From: a bacterium | GTDB taxonomy: Bacteria > AUK180 | DNA length: 6,944 nucleotides | Assembly: GCA_030622125.1 (NCBI GenBank) | Contig: JAUXGM010000116.1 | Coordinates: 1 to 6,944 of the forward strand | Reading direction: 5' to 3' | Shown: in pieces, positions 1-6,892 of the stretch | Position numbering within the stretch: position 1 is the stretch's first letter | Layout of the letters: each line of letters opens with the position of its first letter | Notes under the pieces: generated by a model | What the model saw: the letters and a program-made list of their open reading frames with translations, nothing else | What the model was told of the DNA's origin: nothing | Database searches by the model: none | Made by a program: the position numbers and the translations under genes

Positions 1-123
1 AACACCATTTCTACCGATTAGTGCATATTTATTTCCACTTCCAAGTGAAATATTGATCTTATTCAATATCTTTCTATCGGCAATTTCGTAACTGAGATCA
101 CTGCAAACAATTGAAAAACTCAT
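1..123 (-). CDS. ABC-F family ATPase, N-terminal fragment (runs off the window)
   Basis: Only the first 41 codons are present, read from the ATG at 123-121. The fragment starts MSFSIVCSDLSYEI, continues through a DRKILNKINISL segment and ends in ALIGRNGV, which is the first part of a Walker A P-loop (GxNGxGKS/T). A short strand-rich stretch followed by a Walker A near residue 37, with no membrane segment before it, is how ABC-F proteins (Uup/EttA/YheS type) and soluble ABC ATPase domains begin. ABC-F proteins act on the ribosome or in antibiotic resistance; the subfamily cannot be told here. The ATG overlaps the stop of the upstream radical SAM gene as ATGA, so translation is probably coupled. 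No clear Shine-Dalgarno is seen. A transporter ATPase subunit remains possible because the linker and second domain lie outside the window. Confidence 0.75.
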   Translation of the reverse strand, partial: MSFSIVCSDLSYEIADRKILNKINISLGSGNKYALIGRNGV

Positions 124-2369
124 TCAAATAGGATATCCAGTTTTTTAATTTTCGAGATAGAAATCTCTTTATTCTCCAATGCAAGTAAGGTCTTTTTTAT
201 TGAAGGGAAATTACCATCCTTTTTATTTATCTCAATGATCTTTTTTTTACCATTAACGATATATTGATATTTAACCGCCTTTGATATCGGTTTTGCTTGA
301 ACATTTTTTGCCTCGATAAGGTCTAAACCATTCGGTGAAATCACATTGAACCGCTCCATCCTACCTTTTGAAAATCTATTATGGAGTTCAAGATAAATAT
401 ATTCACCCATGCTTTCTATCCCTATTGGAATTGCTCCATAAGAAGTAAGTTTCTCATTTCTTGCGAACCCTTTTTTTCTTATAATTTCTAATCCAGACAT
501 TTCAAGCAAACGAACAACAATATATAAAAGATCGTTATGTGAGATAAAACGCATTAAACCTATTTTTTTAAATCGAATAAGGTAACGGTAGGTTGTTTTC
601 CGATCTATTTGTTTCCTAATCGGCAGTGTCTTTAATGGAATACTTTTCTGCGGCTGTAATGCTTTATTACATATACCGCAGTTGGTACATTTTCCCATAA
701 AACAATCCTCCGTTTCATCTCCCGATAATGCTTTTTCATATTCAATTTTTAAAAATTCCTTGTTAGTGATATTGATTATTCCGCACCAATAATCCATTTT
801 GAAATTTCTAAGATACCTTTCAAAATTATTTTGACCGGCTATATCTGCGATCTCAGAATACCAATTATCCTTATTGAGAAGATCAACCAATAATTTTGAA
901 ATATTCAGATCCCCTCTTGCAAAAACGGTTTCCATAAGGGAACTGAAATAAAACGGATAGCGGATCTTAACATTTTTCCAATGAATTCCGGCTTTTAATA
1001 TTGAAATTCTTCTTCTATAGTCATCATAAGTGATCAGATCACAATTCTCAAATGGAGTGTTCGGTTTAGGTGCGAAGATAGATACCGTTACATTGATCTG
1101 AAAACGATTTGTCAGTACCTTTCTTACCCTATCTATAAGATTAATGATCTCTACAATATCCTCATCGGTTTCCGTAGGAAGCCCGATCATAAAATAAAAT
1201 TTCACCGTTCTCCAGCTTTTATCTTTAATACGGGCAAGCATCTTAAAAAGATCGGCTTCCGTTATTTTTTTGTTAATAACTTTTCTCAATCTTTCACTTC
1301 CCGCTTCAAGTGCAAAGGTAAGGGAGGTTATTTTTCTTTTTCCCAACTGCTCTACTATCTCCGACTCCAAACTATCCAGTCGCAAAGAAGGAAGAGAGAT
1401 CTTAATATCTTCATTTAACAAAAGAAGTCCCTTGACAAGGGATTTTAATTGAGAATAATCGCCTGTGGAAAGCGAAAGCAAACTTATAGATTTAGTTGCT
1501 TTATTTCTTATTTGCTTTTTTATTCTACTCAATATCTTATTTACATCCCTTTCTCTGTGCGGACGGTAATAACTTCCGGCAGAACAAAAACGGCAGCCCT
1601 GAGTGCAGCCTCTCATAAGCTCCACCTCATATCTTGCTTCACCGATCCTTGTTAATGGAATGAGCACCTCATCTATTGGTGGTGTTTTGGAAAAATTGCT
1701 CCACTTCCCGATTTTTATTACATTACCTATAGGGAAATTAAATCCCTGTTTTTCAATATTTTTGTAATTTTTGGGAACAATAACACCATCAATAGATGAA
1801 ATTCTCTTAAAAAAATCTTCGGACCTTCCATATTTATTGTAGAGATCAATGATCTTTTTGAATCCGAATTCAGCTTCACCGACAAATATGATATCAAAAA
1901 ACGGGAATAACGGAATTGGATTTGAAAGTGTCGGACCTCCGGCGATCAAGAGTGGGGAATCTTCTCCTCTATCCTTTCTGTATAACGGTATATTGGAAAG
2001 TTCTATCATCCTCAACCCGTTTATATAAAGTAGTTCCGATGGAAAAGTTATTCCAAAAACATCATAAGTATCAACGGGATCAAAACTTTCAAGTGTAAAA
2101 AGCGGAATGGAATTTTCTGCCATTTTAGAGATCATATCTCTACCGGGTAAGAAGGTTCTTTCAAATGCTATTTCTTTCTCTTTCGCAAAAAGATCATAGA
2201 ATATTTTTATTGCAAGATTGCTCATTCCAAGTTCATAAAGATCGGGAAAGCCAAACGCTATTTTAATCCTTGAATTCTTTTTATGTATTATTCCGATTTC
2301 ATTACCGATATATCTCTGAGGATATTGAACCTCCGGAAGTATTTTTTCTATTTTGTTAAATAGATTCAT
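120..2369 (-). CDS. Radical SAM protein (TIGR03960-type) fused to a DUF2344/TIGR03936 C-terminal domain
   Basis: The protein has 749 residues. Residues ~15-220 form a B12-binding-like N-terminal region with the PxRYxGxE motif (YPQRYIGNE) and TYDVFGITFPSEL. The radical SAM core follows (~245-440), with the 4Fe-4S motif C255-x3-C259-x2-C262 inside MRGCTQGCRFCSAG. A second cysteine cluster, C556, C561, C564 and C567 (GKCTNCGIC), could hold another metal or cluster. From ~594 the sequence matches the DUF2344 'radical SAM-linked' domain (RFKKIGLMRFISHNDLL, then GAIPIGIES). The substrate of this family is not established; elsewhere it often sits beside RNase E/G and ribosomal protein genes, and the two halves may be separate genes. 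Here it follows rph, and its ATG overlaps the rph TGA (ATGA). No strong Shine-Dalgarno is visible, so coupling is likely. Family assignment is firm; function is unknown. Confidence 0.9.
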   Translation of the reverse strand: MNLFNKIEKILPEVQYPQRYIGNEIGIIHKKNSRIKIAFGFPDLYELGMSNLAIKIFYDLFAKEKEIAFERTFLPGRDMISKMAENSIPLFTLESFDPVDTYDVFGITFPSELLYINGLRMIELSNIPLYRKDRGEDSPLLIAGGPTLSNPIPLFPFFDIIFVGEAEFGFKKIIDLYNKYGRSEDFFKRISSIDGVIVPKNYKNIEKQGFNFPIGNVIKIGKWSNFSKTPPIDEVLIPLTRIGEARYEVELMRGCTQGCRFCSAGSYYRPHRERDVNKILSRIKKQIRNKATKSISLLSLSTGDYSQLKSLVKGLLLLNEDIKISLPSLRLDSLESEIVEQLGKRKITSLTFALEAGSERLRKVINKKITEADLFKMLARIKDKSWRTVKFYFMIGLPTETDEDIVEIINLIDRVRKVLTNRFQINVTVSIFAPKPNTPFENCDLITYDDYRRRISILKAGIHWKNVKIRYPFYFSSLMETVFARGDLNISKLLVDLLNKDNWYSEIADIAGQNNFERYLRNFKMDYWCGIINITNKEFLKIEYEKALSGDETEDCFMGKCTNCGICNKALQPQKSIPLKTLPIRKQIDRKTTYRYLIRFKKIGLMRFISHNDLLYIVVRLLEMSGLEIIRKKGFARNEKLTSYGAIPIGIESMGEYIYLELHNRFSKGRMERFNVISPNGLDLIEAKNVQAKPISKAVKYQYIVNGKKKIIEINKKDGNFPSIKKTLLALENKEISISKIKKLDILFE

Positions 2370-3088
2370 ACGATCGGGTCTGTTTCTATCACTTCCTTTT
2401 CAAAAGAAATTAAATCGGAAATTATTGTCTTTGCTTCTTTTATTACTTCCATAAGTTTACCTTCCGAATAAGGTGTCCCCTCAGACCCGCCTTGTATCTC
2501 CAGTAATTTATTTTCACTGTTCATTATAATATTTAGATCAACATCTGCCGTAAAATCTTGCTCATAATCGGGATCAAAAATAATCTTTTCATCTTTTATT
2601 ATTGCACTTACCCCTGCAATATAATAATTGATCGGTATATTTGTAAAGAAAGATTGTGATCTTAATGTCTTTAATGCCTCATAAAGTGCAATAAATCCCC
2701 CAAGTAATGAAGCGATCCGTGTCCCGCCATCCGCCTGAATAACATCACAATCTATCCAGATGGTTTTTTTAGGGATTGTCGTCAGGTCAATTGCATTTCT
2801 TAAAAGTCTGCCAAGCAATCTTGATATCTCAATCTGTCTTGTATCGGGAACGATTCGGTTCTCATTTCTTATCTTTCTCTTATCGCTTGCCCTTGGAAGC
2901 ATTCTATACTCAACTGCAAGCCAGCCCTGATTTGTTCCGAGAAGATGCGGTGGAACTCTTTTTTCAATTGAGGCGGTTACAGCAACAATATTATTACCCC
3001 AATTGACCCACACAGATCCTTCCGCCCATTTATTCCAATTTTTATTTATCTCAATTGCCCTCAGTTTCCCGCTTTCTTTTTTTAACAT
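2366..3088 (-). CDS. rph: Ribonuclease PH (phosphorolytic 3'-5' exoribonuclease)
   Basis: RNase PH trims the 3' ends of tRNA and other stable RNA precursors, using phosphate and releasing nucleoside diphosphates; it works as a hexameric ring in the cytoplasm. Starting at the ATG at 3088 it is 240 residues, a normal length. Family landmarks are AEGSVWVNWG (22-31), QGWLAVEYRMLPRA (54-67), the Arg-bearing segment DTRQIEISRLLGR (82-94), the phosphate-binding CDVIQADGGTR (114-124) and the acidic cluster DFTADVD (178-184) expected for metal binding. A longer reading from a TTG at 3103 adds five residues (MRGTN), but the ATG at 3088 is preferred. GAGAGG at 3101-3096 lies 7 nt before it, and the family does not need the extension. 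The start is 1 nt after the murI stop, and the end overlaps the next start. Confidence 0.97.
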   Translation of the reverse strand: MLKKESGKLRAIEINKNWNKWAEGSVWVNWGNNIVAVTASIEKRVPPHLLGTNQGWLAVEYRMLPRASDKRKIRNENRIVPDTRQIEISRLLGRLLRNAIDLTTIPKKTIWIDCDVIQADGGTRIASLLGGFIALYEALKTLRSQSFFTNIPINYYIAGVSAIIKDEKIIFDPDYEQDFTADVDLNIIMNSENKLLEIQGGSEGTPYSEGKLMEVIKEAKTIISDLISFEKEVIETDPIV

Positions 3089-3089
3089 A

Positions 3090-3890
3090 TTAGTACCTCT
3101 CAATATCTATTTTTTTGACATGTTCTATCTTTTTATTTAAAAAATTCATGGCAATACTCTTAAAATTTCTCGGTATATCACTGAGATAGAACTCAACATT
3201 TCCATTACCGTTAGAATTTTCCAATCCCTTTTCTCTTAAATAGTTAACAACGACTTTTGTAACTTCCCTTGCCGGATTTATCAAACTGACCTTACCATCA
3301 AAAAAATCATTTAATTTATCTATAAAAAGCGGATAATGAGTACAACCAAGTATCAAGCTATCAATATCTTCCTTTTTTATCTTATGAAGGTAATGTTCTA
3401 TTACTCTATCCGTGATGTCGGTAGAAACAAGACCCTCCTCCGCAATGGGAACAAAAAGAGGACAGGATTTTTCATATATCTTTACATTGTTGTTGTATCG
3501 TGCTTTTATCTTTTTCTGATAACTTTTGGATTCTATCGTTGCATAGGTTCCCACGATACCTATTTTCCGATATTTCCTTGAAAGAGAAGAAATTGTGGGC
3601 TCAATAACCCCGAATATAGGCATATCGTATTCTTTTTTTAGAACTTCCATACTATTTGAAGAAGCACTATTGCAGGCAACCACTATCAATTTTACATTCT
3701 TTGAAAGTAAAAATTTTACATCCTGTCTTGAAAAGTGAATAATGGTTTCTTTTGATTTGGAACCATAAGGCACCCTTGCCGTATCACCAAAGTAAATAAA
3801 TTTTTCATTCGGTAGTTTTTTCAACATCTGAAAAAGGACGGTAAGTCCTCCAACTCCCGAATCAAAAATACCGATAGCTTTTTTATTCAT
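3090..3890 (-). CDS. murI: Glutamate racemase
   Basis: MurI interconverts L- and D-glutamate without a cofactor and supplies D-Glu for the peptidoglycan stem peptide. The 266 residues are a standard length. The two catalytic cysteines are visible: C73 in VVACNSAS, where many homologues have VACNTAS, and C183 in LGCTHYPL, with H185 beside it. The substrate-binding start IFDSGVGGLTV (8-18) and the YFGDTARVPYG segment (33-43) are also present. The ATG at 3890 overlaps the end of the amidase gene by 8 nt, and AGGAA at 3903-3899, inside the amidase tail, is its ribosome binding site at 8-nt spacing. Pairing with a cell-wall amidase gives a small peptidoglycan block inside the operon. The assignment is secure. 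Confidence 0.97.
   Translation of the reverse strand: MNKKAIGIFDSGVGGLTVLFQMLKKLPNEKFIYFGDTARVPYGSKSKETIIHFSRQDVKFLLSKNVKLIVVACNSASSNSMEVLKKEYDMPIFGVIEPTISSLSRKYRKIGIVGTYATIESKSYQKKIKARYNNNVKIYEKSCPLFVPIAEEGLVSTDITDRVIEHYLHKIKKEDIDSLILGCTHYPLFIDKLNDFFDGKVSLINPAREVTKVVVNYLREKGLENSNGNGNVEFYLSDIPRNFKSIAMNFLNKKIEHVKKIDIERY
3096..3101 (-). promoter_or_regulatory. Ribosome binding site of rph, decides its start
   Basis: GAGAGG on the minus strand lies 7 nt before the ATG at 3088. It sits inside the last codons of murI (Glu-Arg). It supports the ATG over the upstream TTG at 3103, which overlaps this site. Confidence 0.75.
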
Positions 3891-5190
3891 TTATGAACTT
3901 CCTATAATTTTTTGTAATATAGACATCTATTGCATCTGCAATCTTATCAGCGAGCTTATTCTGATAACTGCTCGTATTCAAACGTTTTTCCTCTATTCTA
4001 TTTGATAAAAATCCTGCTTCAATTAAGATTGCCGGCATTGTCGCACCATACAAAACATAAAATCTTGCATGTTTCAATGGACGACCGTTTGGTGGAGTTA
4101 TTGTTTTTAGATATTTTGAGACGAAACCACCCAACACAATAGATTCATTTTCAAATTCATTTGACATCATCGACCATATAATTTCACCAAGCATATCTTT
4201 CTTTTGCTCTTTTTCAAGCTTTATAACTTTATTTTCATAAGCTGCAACCTCTCTGGCTTCATCATCGGAAGCGGATTTAGAAAGGTAGTATATCTCAAAT
4301 CCCTTTGCTCTTGGATTATACGAAAAATTGGAATGGATGCTTACAAATATAGATCCATTATTCTTATTCGCATAACGAGTTCTTGACCTCAACGGAATAA
4401 AAACATCGGTAGATCTTGTCATCAAAACGGTGTAGCCCTTATGTTTTAATTCTCGTGTAATCTTATTCCCAATTGAAAGAACAACTTTTTTTTCCCTAAC
4501 ACCGGTAATTCCGATTGCACCCGGATCCTTGCCTCCATGACCGGGATCAATGATAATACATATCTTCTTTTTATTAAGTTCTCCTGTTTTTTGTGTAACT
4601 ATTGGAGAAATATTTTTCTTATTATCCTCTTTTTTCAAGGTATAAAAGAATTCTATTGTTTTATCCCCCTGCTTTTGAATATTTAGATCCGTAATATATT
4701 TGAACTTAATTAGAATTTTGTTATCAACTATTTTTATGTAATCAACCCCCTTATTTGGTAGGGAATAATAATCCTCTTTAAGATTACAGACCTCTCCACT
4801 TACCAATTTATAAAGCCTGTCGGATTTTTTTTCTGCATTAATTTCTTCATAAGAATAGACCTTTAACAAATAGTGTTCATCCTTGTTCACCACCTCAAAA
4901 TCGTATATACCCGCTTTTCTCTTCCACTTTTCAAGAAACTCATCGGGAATAATAAAATCATTATCCTTATAAATAACATTATCCGTTAAGTGGTAAATAT
5001 TTATTCCCTTATAATATATATTTGTGTTTGGCAGAAAGGTGAAGGTATGTCCTGAAAACTTTAAAGTAAGTATATTACTATACGGATCATAATTATATGA
5101 ATAACCTTTTTTTTCAACGAGTTCCCTTAATGAAAAGGAATTTATTAAAATTGATAGAGTCAGTAGTACAATTATAATTACTTTTTTCAT
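3883..5190 (-). CDS. Secreted N-acetylmuramoyl-L-alanine amidase (Amidase_3)
   Basis: This zinc amidase cleaves the bond between N-acetylmuramic acid and L-alanine in peptidoglycan, in the periplasm or wall. Read from the ATG at 5190 it has 435 residues. Residues 1-20 are a signal peptide (MKK, a hydrophobic VIIIVLLTLSILI, a likely cut after SFS). Residues ~21-185 form a beta-rich region with a GYSYNYDPYSNILTL repeat-like start, possibly a stalk/AMIN-like or copper-amine-oxidase-N-type domain. The catalytic domain spans ~209-428. Expected zinc ligands are H218 (DPGHGG), E233 and H286 (VSIHSN); the catalytic Glu is E391 (LIEAGFLSN). The frame stays open to an ATG at 5250, but that adds 20 residues encoded by the tmRNA 3' end and lacks a ribosome binding site. 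No Shine-Dalgarno precedes 5190 either: the tmRNA CCA ends 6 nt upstream. Confidence 0.93.
   Translation of the reverse strand: MKKVIIIVLLTLSILINSFSLRELVEKKGYSYNYDPYSNILTLKFSGHTFTFLPNTNIYYKGINIYHLTDNVIYKDNDFIIPDEFLEKWKRKAGIYDFEVVNKDEHYLLKVYSYEEINAEKKSDRLYKLVSGEVCNLKEDYYSLPNKGVDYIKIVDNKILIKFKYITDLNIQKQGDKTIEFFYTLKKEDNKKNISPIVTQKTGELNKKKICIIIDPGHGGKDPGAIGITGVREKKVVLSIGNKITRELKHKGYTVLMTRSTDVFIPLRSRTRYANKNNGSIFVSIHSNFSYNPRAKGFEIYYLSKSASDDEAREVAAYENKVIKLEKEQKKDMLGEIIWSMMSNEFENESIVLGGFVSKYLKTITPPNGRPLKHARFYVLYGATMPAILIEAGFLSNRIEEKRLNTSSYQNKLADKIADAIDVYITKNYRKFINE
3899..3903 (-). promoter_or_regulatory. Ribosome binding site of murI
   Basis: AGGAA on the minus strand, 8 nt upstream of the murI ATG, lies within the coding end of the amidase gene. 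It suggests independent but coupled initiation at the 8-nt overlap. Confidence 0.6.
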
Positions 5191-5196
5191 ATTTAT

Positions 5197-5540
5197 TGGT
5201 GGAGGCGGCGGGAATCGAACCCACGTCCAAAGAAGAGCATAGCATAACATCTACATACTTATACTGTTTTTGTTTTTCACCGTGATTTATCCAACAGTCA
5301 GGAGATCACGGCAAGTTTCAGGAAATTTTCTCTGTCTTTCCCTCTGAAACACAAGTTGGACAGATAGCCAATCTACCGTGGGGTAGTCAGAAACGATTGG
5401 CGATCTCTGGTACCCCGCTGCTTCTTTAAGCAGCAAGTGCGAAGTTATCTTCGGCGCTTAAAAATTTTTGACCCGTTACAGTGGATCAATCTGGTATGCA
5501 GTTATACCTACCACAACCCTGTCGAAACCATTACGCCCCC
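5197..5540 (-). ncRNA. ssrA: tmRNA (transfer-messenger RNA)
   Basis: tmRNA rescues stalled ribosomes with SmpB: it enters charged with alanine, then serves as a short message that tags the product for proteolysis. The 5' end GGGGGCGTAATGGTTTCGAC is the classic tmRNA start. It pairs as a 7-bp acceptor stem, GGGGGCG with CGCCTCC (one G-U), followed by discriminator A and an encoded CCA at 5199-5197. The T arm is GTGGG-TTCGATT-CCCGC (5224-5208). The tag frame lies at 5455-5426, and its stop sits in a hairpin, GCTGCTT-AAAG-AAGCAGC (5434-5417), as in helix 5 of known tmRNAs. Total length is 344 nt, one-piece form. smpB ends 5 nt upstream and an amidase starts 6 nt downstream, so the mature RNA is probably cut from a polycistronic transcript. 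Confidence 0.97.
5426..5455 (-). other. tmRNA tag-peptide reading frame (AEDNFALAA)
   Basis: Inside ssrA the codons GCC GAA GAT AAC TTC GCA CTT GCT GCT TAA encode AEDNFALAA, taking GCC as the resume codon. The ALAA ending is the usual ClpXP-type degron. The resume position is inferred by analogy with other tags, which usually begin with Ala or Gly; the C-terminal part and the stop are unambiguous. Confidence 0.88.
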
Positions 5541-5545
5541 GGTTA

Positions 5546-6001
5546 TTATTTATTTTTTCTCATTCGGGCTTCGTCTCTTTCAATATCTCTTTTTTTGATC
5601 TCTTCCCTTTTGTCAAACTTCTTCTTTCCTGTTACAATCCCGATCTCAAGTTTTACATAGCTTCCGGATAGATATATCTTAATAGGGATAATCGTGTATC
5701 CCTTTGCTTCAACCTTTTTACGCAATCGGAGAAGTTCTCGTTTTCCGAGAAGCAATTTTCTTTCTCTAAGAGTATCAACTTTTACATAATCGCTGTTCTT
5801 GTAAGCGTCAATTCTCATGCCTTGAATAAAAAGTTCGCAATTTTTAAAAGAACAGAATGCACCCTTTAATGAAACCCTTCGCATGCGAAGAGACTTCACC
5901 TCTGAACCAGCAAGAACTATGCCAGCCTCGTACTTTTCTACAACAGTATATTTAAAAAGTGCTTTGTTTTGTTTCAACAAAACATATTTTCTATTTTCCA
6001 T
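5546..6001 (-). CDS. smpB: SsrA-binding protein SmpB
   Basis: SmpB binds the tRNA-like domain of tmRNA and places it in the empty A site of a stalled ribosome. The 151 residues match the family in length and order. They include EKYEAGIVLAGSEVKSLR (22-39), RERKLLLGKREL (79-90), KGYTIIPIKIY (100-110), GKKKFDKREEIKKRD (125-139), and a basic C-terminal tail of the kind that probes the mRNA channel. The gene ends in tandem stops (TAA TAA at 5548-5543), 5 nt before the tmRNA 5' end, so protein and RNA partner are adjacent and probably cotranscribed. The ATG at 6001 has no Shine-Dalgarno. A strong -10 ends 8 nt before it, so the message should be leaderless or nearly so. The assignment is secure. 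Confidence 0.97.
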   Translation of the reverse strand: MENRKYVLLKQNKALFKYTVVEKYEAGIVLAGSEVKSLRMRRVSLKGAFCSFKNCELFIQGMRIDAYKNSDYVKVDTLRERKLLLGKRELLRLRKKVEAKGYTIIPIKIYLSGSYVKLEIGIVTGKKKFDKREEIKKRDIERDEARMRKNK

Positions 6002-6009
6002 AATTTATC

Positions 6010-6038
6010 ATTATAGTTTATTTTGAACTATTTTTCAA
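6010..6038 (-). promoter_or_regulatory. Sigma-70-type promoter of smpB and probably the whole downstream operon
   Basis: On the minus strand TTGAAA (6038-6033) and TATAAT (6015-6010) are separated by exactly 17 nt, five of six plus six of six consensus positions. The expected start of transcription is ~6004-6001, at or within 3 nt of the smpB ATG. No comparable promoter was found in the few-nucleotide gaps between the downstream genes. Confidence 0.75.
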
Positions 6039-6201: not shown

Positions 6202-6624
6202 TTAATTTTTAAAAAATGTTTCCAATTCTGACTCAAAATCTTTCCACAAATCAGGCAGATTATCAGCAAGCGGAATTAATTTTTCTTTATCCAACATTAT
6301 TCCATAACCATGAATAAAAAAATGACGAAAGGCTAAATATTCGTTTAACTTCATGGAAAGTTCAGATGAAATTATTTTATGATCAACCGAGAGGTTTAAT
6401 AAATCCTTGTGCCAAGATTCTGAGGAGGAAACAGATATACCTTTGTATTTTAACACTCTTTTTAGTATATTTTCTATTCCATTATAAGCATTTTAGAGAA
6501 AGGTAGCAATAGCAGCTAACTCAACAACAGTCATTTCTTTACGCCTTAATGTTTCTCTTAATGCCTGAAGAGCAGCCAAAATATATTCTTTATCCACTTG
6601 AATCTCTCTAAGTAATTCATCCAT
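6202..6624 (-). pseudogene. hepT: HepT-like HEPN ribonuclease toxin, interrupted by an in-frame TAA
   Basis: HepT toxins are HEPN RNases that cleave RNA and are silenced by nucleotidylation from MntA. From the ATG at 6624 the frame reads 43 residues (MDELLREIQVDKEYI… ending ELAAIATFL), meets TAA at 6495-6493, then continues NAYNGIENILKR and runs to a TAA at 6204-6202. The total is 139 residues plus the interrupting codon, about the family length. The part after the stop holds the RNase motif R100-x4-H105-x-Y107 (RHFFIHGY); Y107 matches the tyrosine AMPylated in characterised HepT proteins. One C-to-T change (CAA to TAA, Gln to stop) would explain the break. AGGGG at 6640-6636 is a plausible ribosome binding site. 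The start overlaps the mntA stop by 8 nt. An 84-residue restart from a GTG at 6456 would keep the motif but lose N-terminal helices. Sequencing error or strain polymorphism is possible. Confidence 0.82.
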
Positions 6625-6883
6625 ATATCTTTATTCCCCTTTCTTTAATTATTTGATTGAATAAGGATTCTTCGGATAAATCCACAAGATCCACTGGTTT
6701 AGATAGATTTCTTAGCAGTTCGCCATAAAATTTAAAAAAAACCTCGGGTTTAATTCCTTGAACTGCCAAATCTATATCATTATAATTACTTTTGTTCAAT
6801 GATGAGCCAAAGAGGTAAATAGAGTAAACATTATATTTCTTTGCATATAAGATAATAATCCTTTTCTCTTTTTCACTTATCAT
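6617..6883 (-). CDS. mntA: Minimal nucleotidyltransferase antitoxin, MntA-like (type VII TA)
   Basis: MntA-type proteins silence HepT by adding AMP to its conserved tyrosine. From the ATG at 6883 this one has 88 residues. It shows the nucleotidyltransferase core YLFGSSLN…NDIDLAV, with G26-S27 and the metal-binding pair D36-x-D38, and a third acidic position in VDLVDL (D65/D68). The GS-to-DxD gap is 8 residues rather than the more usual 10, but the rest (FYGELL, KPVDLVDLS, and the ERGIKIYG end) fits the family. A longer form from a GTG at 6889 is less likely: AAAAGG at 6898-6893 is 9 nt from the ATG but only 3 nt from the GTG. The gene overlaps the broken toxin gene by 8 nt, the usual coupling for such pairs. 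It appears intact although its toxin is interrupted. Confidence 0.85.
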   Translation of the reverse strand: MISEKEKRIIILYAKKYNVYSIYLFGSSLNKSNYNDIDLAVQGIKPEVFFKFYGELLRNLSKPVDLVDLSEESLFNQIIKERGIKIYG

Positions 6884-6892
6884 AATCACTTA

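Follow-up and report, generated by a model that had tools for sequence, protein, structure and literature searches.

How a gene for a stable RNA can be accommodated between two protein genes that leave it almost no flanking sequence of its own is the question raised by the locus described here. In the 6,944-nt stretch of bacterial DNA that was analyzed (the window), ssrA, the gene for tmRNA, through which stalled ribosomes are freed, is enclosed by smpB on one side and by an amidase gene on the other. A preliminary description had put the smpB stop codon 5 nt before the tmRNA and the amidase ATG 6 nt after its CCA, and both distances prove exact.

Anatomy of the Locus

All of the genes concerned lie on the reverse strand. 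The ssrA gene occupies positions 5197–5540, with identical ends from ARAGORN and from Rfam model RF00023, which it matches over its full length (157 bits, model positions 1–374). The tRNA-like domain and a tag frame encoding AEDNFALAA* (ARAGORN) further identify the product as a tmRNA, and its CCA is encoded, ending at 5197. The SsrA-binding protein encoded by smpB (5546–6001) matches its family across the full length (PF01668, 3.6e-49; TIGR00086, 4.4e-48, above cut-off). The 5-nt spacer between these genes (5541–5545) reads TAACC, a second in-frame TAA followed by CC. On the other side, the 6 nt ATAAAT (5191–5196) separate the CCA from the amidase ATG at 5190; this start has no Shine-Dalgarno (SD) site, the bases upstream of it being those of the tmRNA acceptor end, and the six nucleotides would form the entire downstream leader if the tmRNA were excised.

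Behind the tmRNA follow genes for an N-acetylmuramoyl-L-alanine amidase (Amidase_3; 3883–5190; PF01520, 6.7e-52) with a signal-like N terminus, MKKVIIIVLL; glutamate racemase (murI; 3090–3890; TIGR00067, above cut-off); RNase PH, a 3' exonuclease that trims the 3' ends of stable RNAs (rph; 2366–3103; TIGR01966, above cut-off); and, as the downstream member of the run, a radical SAM/DUF2344 protein of the TIGR03960 type (120–2369; Pfam and TIGR03960). The ends of these four genes overlap. An alternative amidase start inside the tmRNA (ATG at 5250) was rejected, as an MKK signal-like N terminus directly after the CCA is common to the relatives, and a minimum-free-energy fold of the tmRNA precursor was set aside because this approach misfolds a pseudoknotted RNA.

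Conservation of the Junctions

Seven genomes of the window's phylum were compared, five of which (G000–G004, with G000 the window's own) belong to one family. In all five family members the smpB stop codon falls between −1 and +5 nt of the tmRNA 5' end: the gap is +5 in G000, +1 in G002 and G003, and −1 in G001 and G004, in which the stop codon TAG takes the first G of the tmRNA. The distance from CCA to the amidase ATG is 6 nt in G000, 7 in G001, 5 in G002, and 7 in G004, these four genomes representing only three genera, and in each the tmRNA is followed by amidase, murI, rph, and the radical SAM gene in that order. The amidases at this place in G001, G002, and G004 are 54–57% identical to that of the window. 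Tight junctions on both sides are therefore found in four of the five family members, and the 5' junction in all five. Comparison with related genomes had been proposed in the preliminary description as a check; both junctions recur in G001, G002, and G004, and the smpB junction alone in G003. Because of this recurrence, and that of an analogous pair in another phylum, the junctions can be taken as real, neither chance nor misassembly.

In G003, amidase-murI-rph lies elsewhere in the genome, and the same unit is present in G005, likewise without an adjacent smpB-ssrA. Neither G005 nor G006 gave a match to smpB or tmRNA, but these assemblies are 80% and 72% complete, respectively, so that loss is not claimed. 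At the place held by the amidase in its relatives, the G003 locus has a convergent gene 41 nt behind the tmRNA that by eye resembles a REP-type transposase.

Promoters and Terminators

If the tmRNA shares a transcript with its neighbors, a promoter should be sought ahead of smpB. A scan with a sigma-70-type consensus, scored out of 12 and apt to miss weak promoters, predicts an operon promoter at 6010–6038 on the reverse strand (TTGAAA-17-TATAAT, 11/12), with the −10 box ending 8 nt before the smpB ATG. Sites of 10–11/12 precede smpB in all five family members, with the −10 box ending 8–18 nt before the ATG: TTGATT-17-TATAAT at 8 nt in G002, TTGATA-17-TATACT at 14 nt in G003, and TTGACT-17-TATAAT at 18 nt in G001 and G004, counted from the ATG of MEEESRRYLL, the latter of two ATGs in frame. 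Since sites of at least 10/12 occur at a background rate of ~0.5 per kb per strand (~0.01 expected per 20 nt), the presence of one so close to smpB (within 20 nt) in all family genomes is not attributable to chance.

This promoter is also the only site of at least 10/12 on the operon strand in the ~900 nt before the amidase. The scan found none at that threshold between smpB and the amidase in any of the four linked genomes, although with 0.35–0.4 such sites expected by chance in 811 nt, absence from a single genome is weak evidence. The unlinked amidases do have a promoter of their own, scoring 11/12 at 45 nt before the start in G003 and 10/12 at 51 nt in G005; a linked amidase would seem to borrow a promoter, and an unlinked one to have its own. 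In the window, no intrinsic terminator-like site was found between the tmRNA 3' end and the amidase, as the preliminary description had supposed. One terminator-like hairpin (5489–5468) lies within the tmRNA itself, and a candidate −10 box for a promoter of the tmRNA's own (AATAAT, 5550–5545, 4 nt before 5540) was rejected, being without a −35 partner and not conserved.

By consensus scan and five-genome comparison, then, smpB and ssrA share a predicted promoter, with neither terminator nor promoter predicted between them. The reading put forward in the preliminary description, a single transcript carrying smpB, ssrA, and the amidase from which the tmRNA would be excised, is well supported by these comparative results. 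Another possibility is that ssrA is driven chiefly from within smpB, co-transcription with smpB being minor, RNase P trimming the leader, and read-through feeding the amidase. Promoters within upstream genes are common, smpB mRNA should be much scarcer than tmRNA, and sites of 9/12 do occur inside smpB of G001 and G004. These two sites are at different positions, however, no site of at least 9/12 occurs inside smpB of G000, G002, or G003, and the strong conserved promoter is the one directly before smpB, all of which make an internal promoter quite improbable.

Predicted Near-leaderless Starts in the Window Genome

Excision from a common transcript would leave the amidase message with almost no leader, so that it matters how genes begin in this organism. 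The anti-SD at the 3' end of its 16S rRNA is intact. In a sample of ~641 kb of the window genome's contigs, 259 of 468 first-ATG genes have an SD-like match, compared with 96 of 468 control positions. Promoters of at least 10/12 peak 5–7 nt before the ATG, where 22 genes have one at these three distances together, as opposed to 0–5 genes for each remaining distance; almost all of the genes in the peak are without an SD. From this sharp, nearly SD-free peak it follows that the genome clearly contains a class of leaderless genes. The start of smpB, also without an SD and with its −10 box 8 nt upstream, lies close to this class. The messages for smpB and the amidase would both be nearly leaderless if ~10 nt is taken as the upper limit for the leader, a prediction new in this analysis; the SD-less amidase start goes beyond the preliminary description.

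tRNAs Placed before Start Codons

The amidase start is not isolated in its placement. Among 22 cluster-terminal tRNAs of the window genome, six are followed within 12 nt by a same-strand ATG opening a frame of at least 100 codons, compared with one of 23 tRNAs from other bacteria, a small comparison set (Fisher p = 0.047). In five of the six, the ATG lies 3–11 nt after the tRNA and is clear of any SD: a TilS-like protein (3 nt), an HD-domain protein (9 nt), a protein without a Pfam match (10 nt), a nucleotidyltransferase beginning MKKAIVLAAGLGKRM (10 nt), and a PHP-domain protein (11 nt). For the sixth (L242), translation may instead begin at another ATG, which has an SD-like match. Genes 18–50 nt behind a tRNA have SD-like matches (L222, L229, L234, L237, and L239), and one at 17 nt (L279) is without. 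Given these short SD-less spacings, the window tmRNA is placed like several tRNAs in the same genome. The tRNA 3 nt before the TilS-like gene (L235, contig G000:C101) has the anticodon CAT; if it is a TilS substrate, RNA and enzyme would be adjacent there, as are ssrA and smpB.

Proposed Processing of a Shared Transcript

Taken together, we infer that smpB, ssrA, amidase, murI, rph, and the radical SAM gene would form one transcription unit, read from the promoter directly before smpB, and that the tmRNA would be released from this shared messenger instead of being the product of a free-standing gene. RNase P, which makes tmRNA 5' ends (PMC3985003) and the RNA of which is present in the window genome (167 bits), is predicted to cut at 5541/5540, the border of spacer and tmRNA. 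At the other end, an endonuclease would cut in the few nucleotides after the CCA, and the product would be trimmed by an exonuclease, RNase PH or one like it. For a single cut to leave the tmRNA complete and the amidase frame undamaged, it would have to fall inside the spacer of 5–10 nt. Following excision, the smpB message would end just past its stop codon, or without a stop in some relatives, and the amidase-murI-rph message, with a leader of ~6 nt and no SD, would be translated as a near-leaderless mRNA. As a whole, this explanation, including translation of the cut downstream message, is one that we consider probable.

Which enzyme would make the 3' cut bears on a different possibility, that excision and a translatable amidase message are mutually exclusive: cleavage would then be distal, followed by 3'-to-5' trimming, and the amidase would be translated from uncut transcripts despite the tRNA-like fold ahead of it. 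None of the five family members gave a match to RNase E/G (TIGR00757), which is present in G005 and G006, and RNase Z gave no match above cut-off; RNase PH is known to trim stable RNAs, and its gene sits in the operon. The amidase start, on the other hand, has no SD and is 6 nt from the acceptor end, and short SD-less spacing recurs both after tRNAs and in another phylum. In Propionibacterium acnes, moreover, which has no evident RNase Z and many leaderless mRNAs, cuts are made a few nucleotides after the encoded CCA, with RNase PH as a likely trimmer (PMC3848588). Mutual exclusion appears rather unlikely, and a cut within the spacer is the preferred reading. As a separate observation, the occurrence of RNase E/G is opposite to that of smpB and tmRNA across G000–G004 versus G005 and G006, the last two being incomplete assemblies.

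Overlaps and Related Loci outside the Family

Variations on this arrangement are found well beyond the family. One genus from another phylum is represented by three genomes (G052, G327, and G386), in which the smpB gap is −10, the final codons (KGA-stop) lying in the first ten bases of the tmRNA, and an amidase starts 10 nt after the CCA, followed by murI. The order smpB-ssrA-amidase is also present in family f26 (G030), where the leader is longer and has an SD-like site; the gene order thus does not demand a near-leaderless junction. The smpB stop codon lies 8 to 21 nt inside the tmRNA in several Patescibacteria loci, and in three of these (L052, L096, and L103) infC follows ssrA instead of the amidase, with a likely start (ATT or TTG) 7–9 nt after the tmRNA. 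These smpB-ssrA-infC loci, in one of which the IF-3 identity was tested with TIGR00168, would represent a second kind of ssrA sandwich. Other candidates were not retained: the apparent 9-nt start in L131 overlaps a terminator-like hairpin, and in pattern matches from G177, G146, G286, G238, and G358 the frames after the CCA span only 3–69 codons, so that no gene is claimed.

A 2014 survey found overlap of smpB with ssrA only in Carsonella, where it should make the smpB mRNA non-stop (PMC4131195). The window, with its +5 nt gap, has no such overlap; it is present in G001 and G004, in G052, G327, and G386, and in the Patescibacteria loci (−8 to −21), which would extend it to at least three other lineages. 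In these relatives the 5' cut would remove the smpB stop codon, a second point beyond the preliminary description.

Whether the association serves a purpose is a distinct issue. Simple packing, in which loss of spacers joined smpB-ssrA to amidase-murI-rph with no link between ribosome rescue and the cell wall, is compatible with the excision mechanism, and we lean toward it. It fits with the unlinked amidase-murI-rph units of G003 and G005 and with the replacement of the amidase by infC in three Patescibacteria; recurrence of amidase-murI after ssrA in another phylum, at similarly short spacing, and of the amidase after ssrA in f26 points the other way. The preliminary description had expected SmpB, tmRNA, and cell-wall genes to share expression. 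That much would follow from the operon, but a selected purpose does not, the amidase-murI-rph unit existing unlinked in G003 and G005.

Relation to Known Systems

That ssrA is the most frequent neighbor of smpB (PMC4131195, PMC3534368), and that the two are co-transcribed, was already known. As in the Bacillus subtilis operon secG-yvaK-rnr-smpB-ssrA, smpB here is directly upstream of ssrA on one strand. Unlike in operons of that type, hardly any spacer is left on either side, the protein operon that follows has no terminator or SD ahead of it, and the cluster includes RNase PH, not RNase R. What resembles Carsonella is that in G001, G004, G052, G327, G386, and several Patescibacteria the 5' cut would coincide with the smpB stop codon or precede it; the window, in contrast, keeps its stop, and the SmpB proteins considered here have a C-terminal tail of normal length.

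Another parallel is the tRNA punctuation of mitochondria, in which excised structured RNAs leave leaderless messages, sometimes with incomplete stop codons. The spacing here would fit such a scheme. Unlike mitochondria, this is a bacterium whose anti-SD is intact and which has SD starts as well, junctions of the punctuation kind are only a part of the total, and there is no evidence for common descent of the arrangement. P. acnes likewise has endonuclease cuts a few nucleotides after the CCA, and leaders no longer than 10 nt are frequent there; its tRNAs are mostly transcribed singly, and the available part of the report describes no tmRNA-protein operon (PMC3848588). New with respect to these systems are the sandwich, with a downstream start that would be nearly leaderless, its recurrence in two phyla with the same amidase-murI neighbors, and the parallel with tRNAs.

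A more far-reaching suggestion is that bacterial tRNA punctuation operates here, excision of the tmRNA and of several tRNAs making near-leaderless messages, while in the relatives non-stop smpB mRNA feeds its own rescue system in a feedback loop; this we offer tentatively, as conceivable rather than probable. If the explanation proposed for the window is true, a bacterium makes translatable messages by excising a stable RNA, a strategy for which mitochondria have so far been the main example, and one transcript links the supply of tmRNA and SmpB to that of cell-wall enzymes. The overlap in further lineages would present a circuit, open to testing, by which ribosome rescue limits itself.

Flanks of the Window

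At the downstream edge, the start of an ABC-ATPase-like frame (1–121, reverse strand) overlaps the radical SAM stop codon by 4 nt and is cut by the contig end; it is perhaps a further member of the operon. Upstream of smpB, the region 6202–6889 (reverse strand) holds an MNT nucleotidyltransferase and then a HepT-like frame that appears broken, its Pfam match being limited to profile positions 25–108 and the upstream part lying in another frame.
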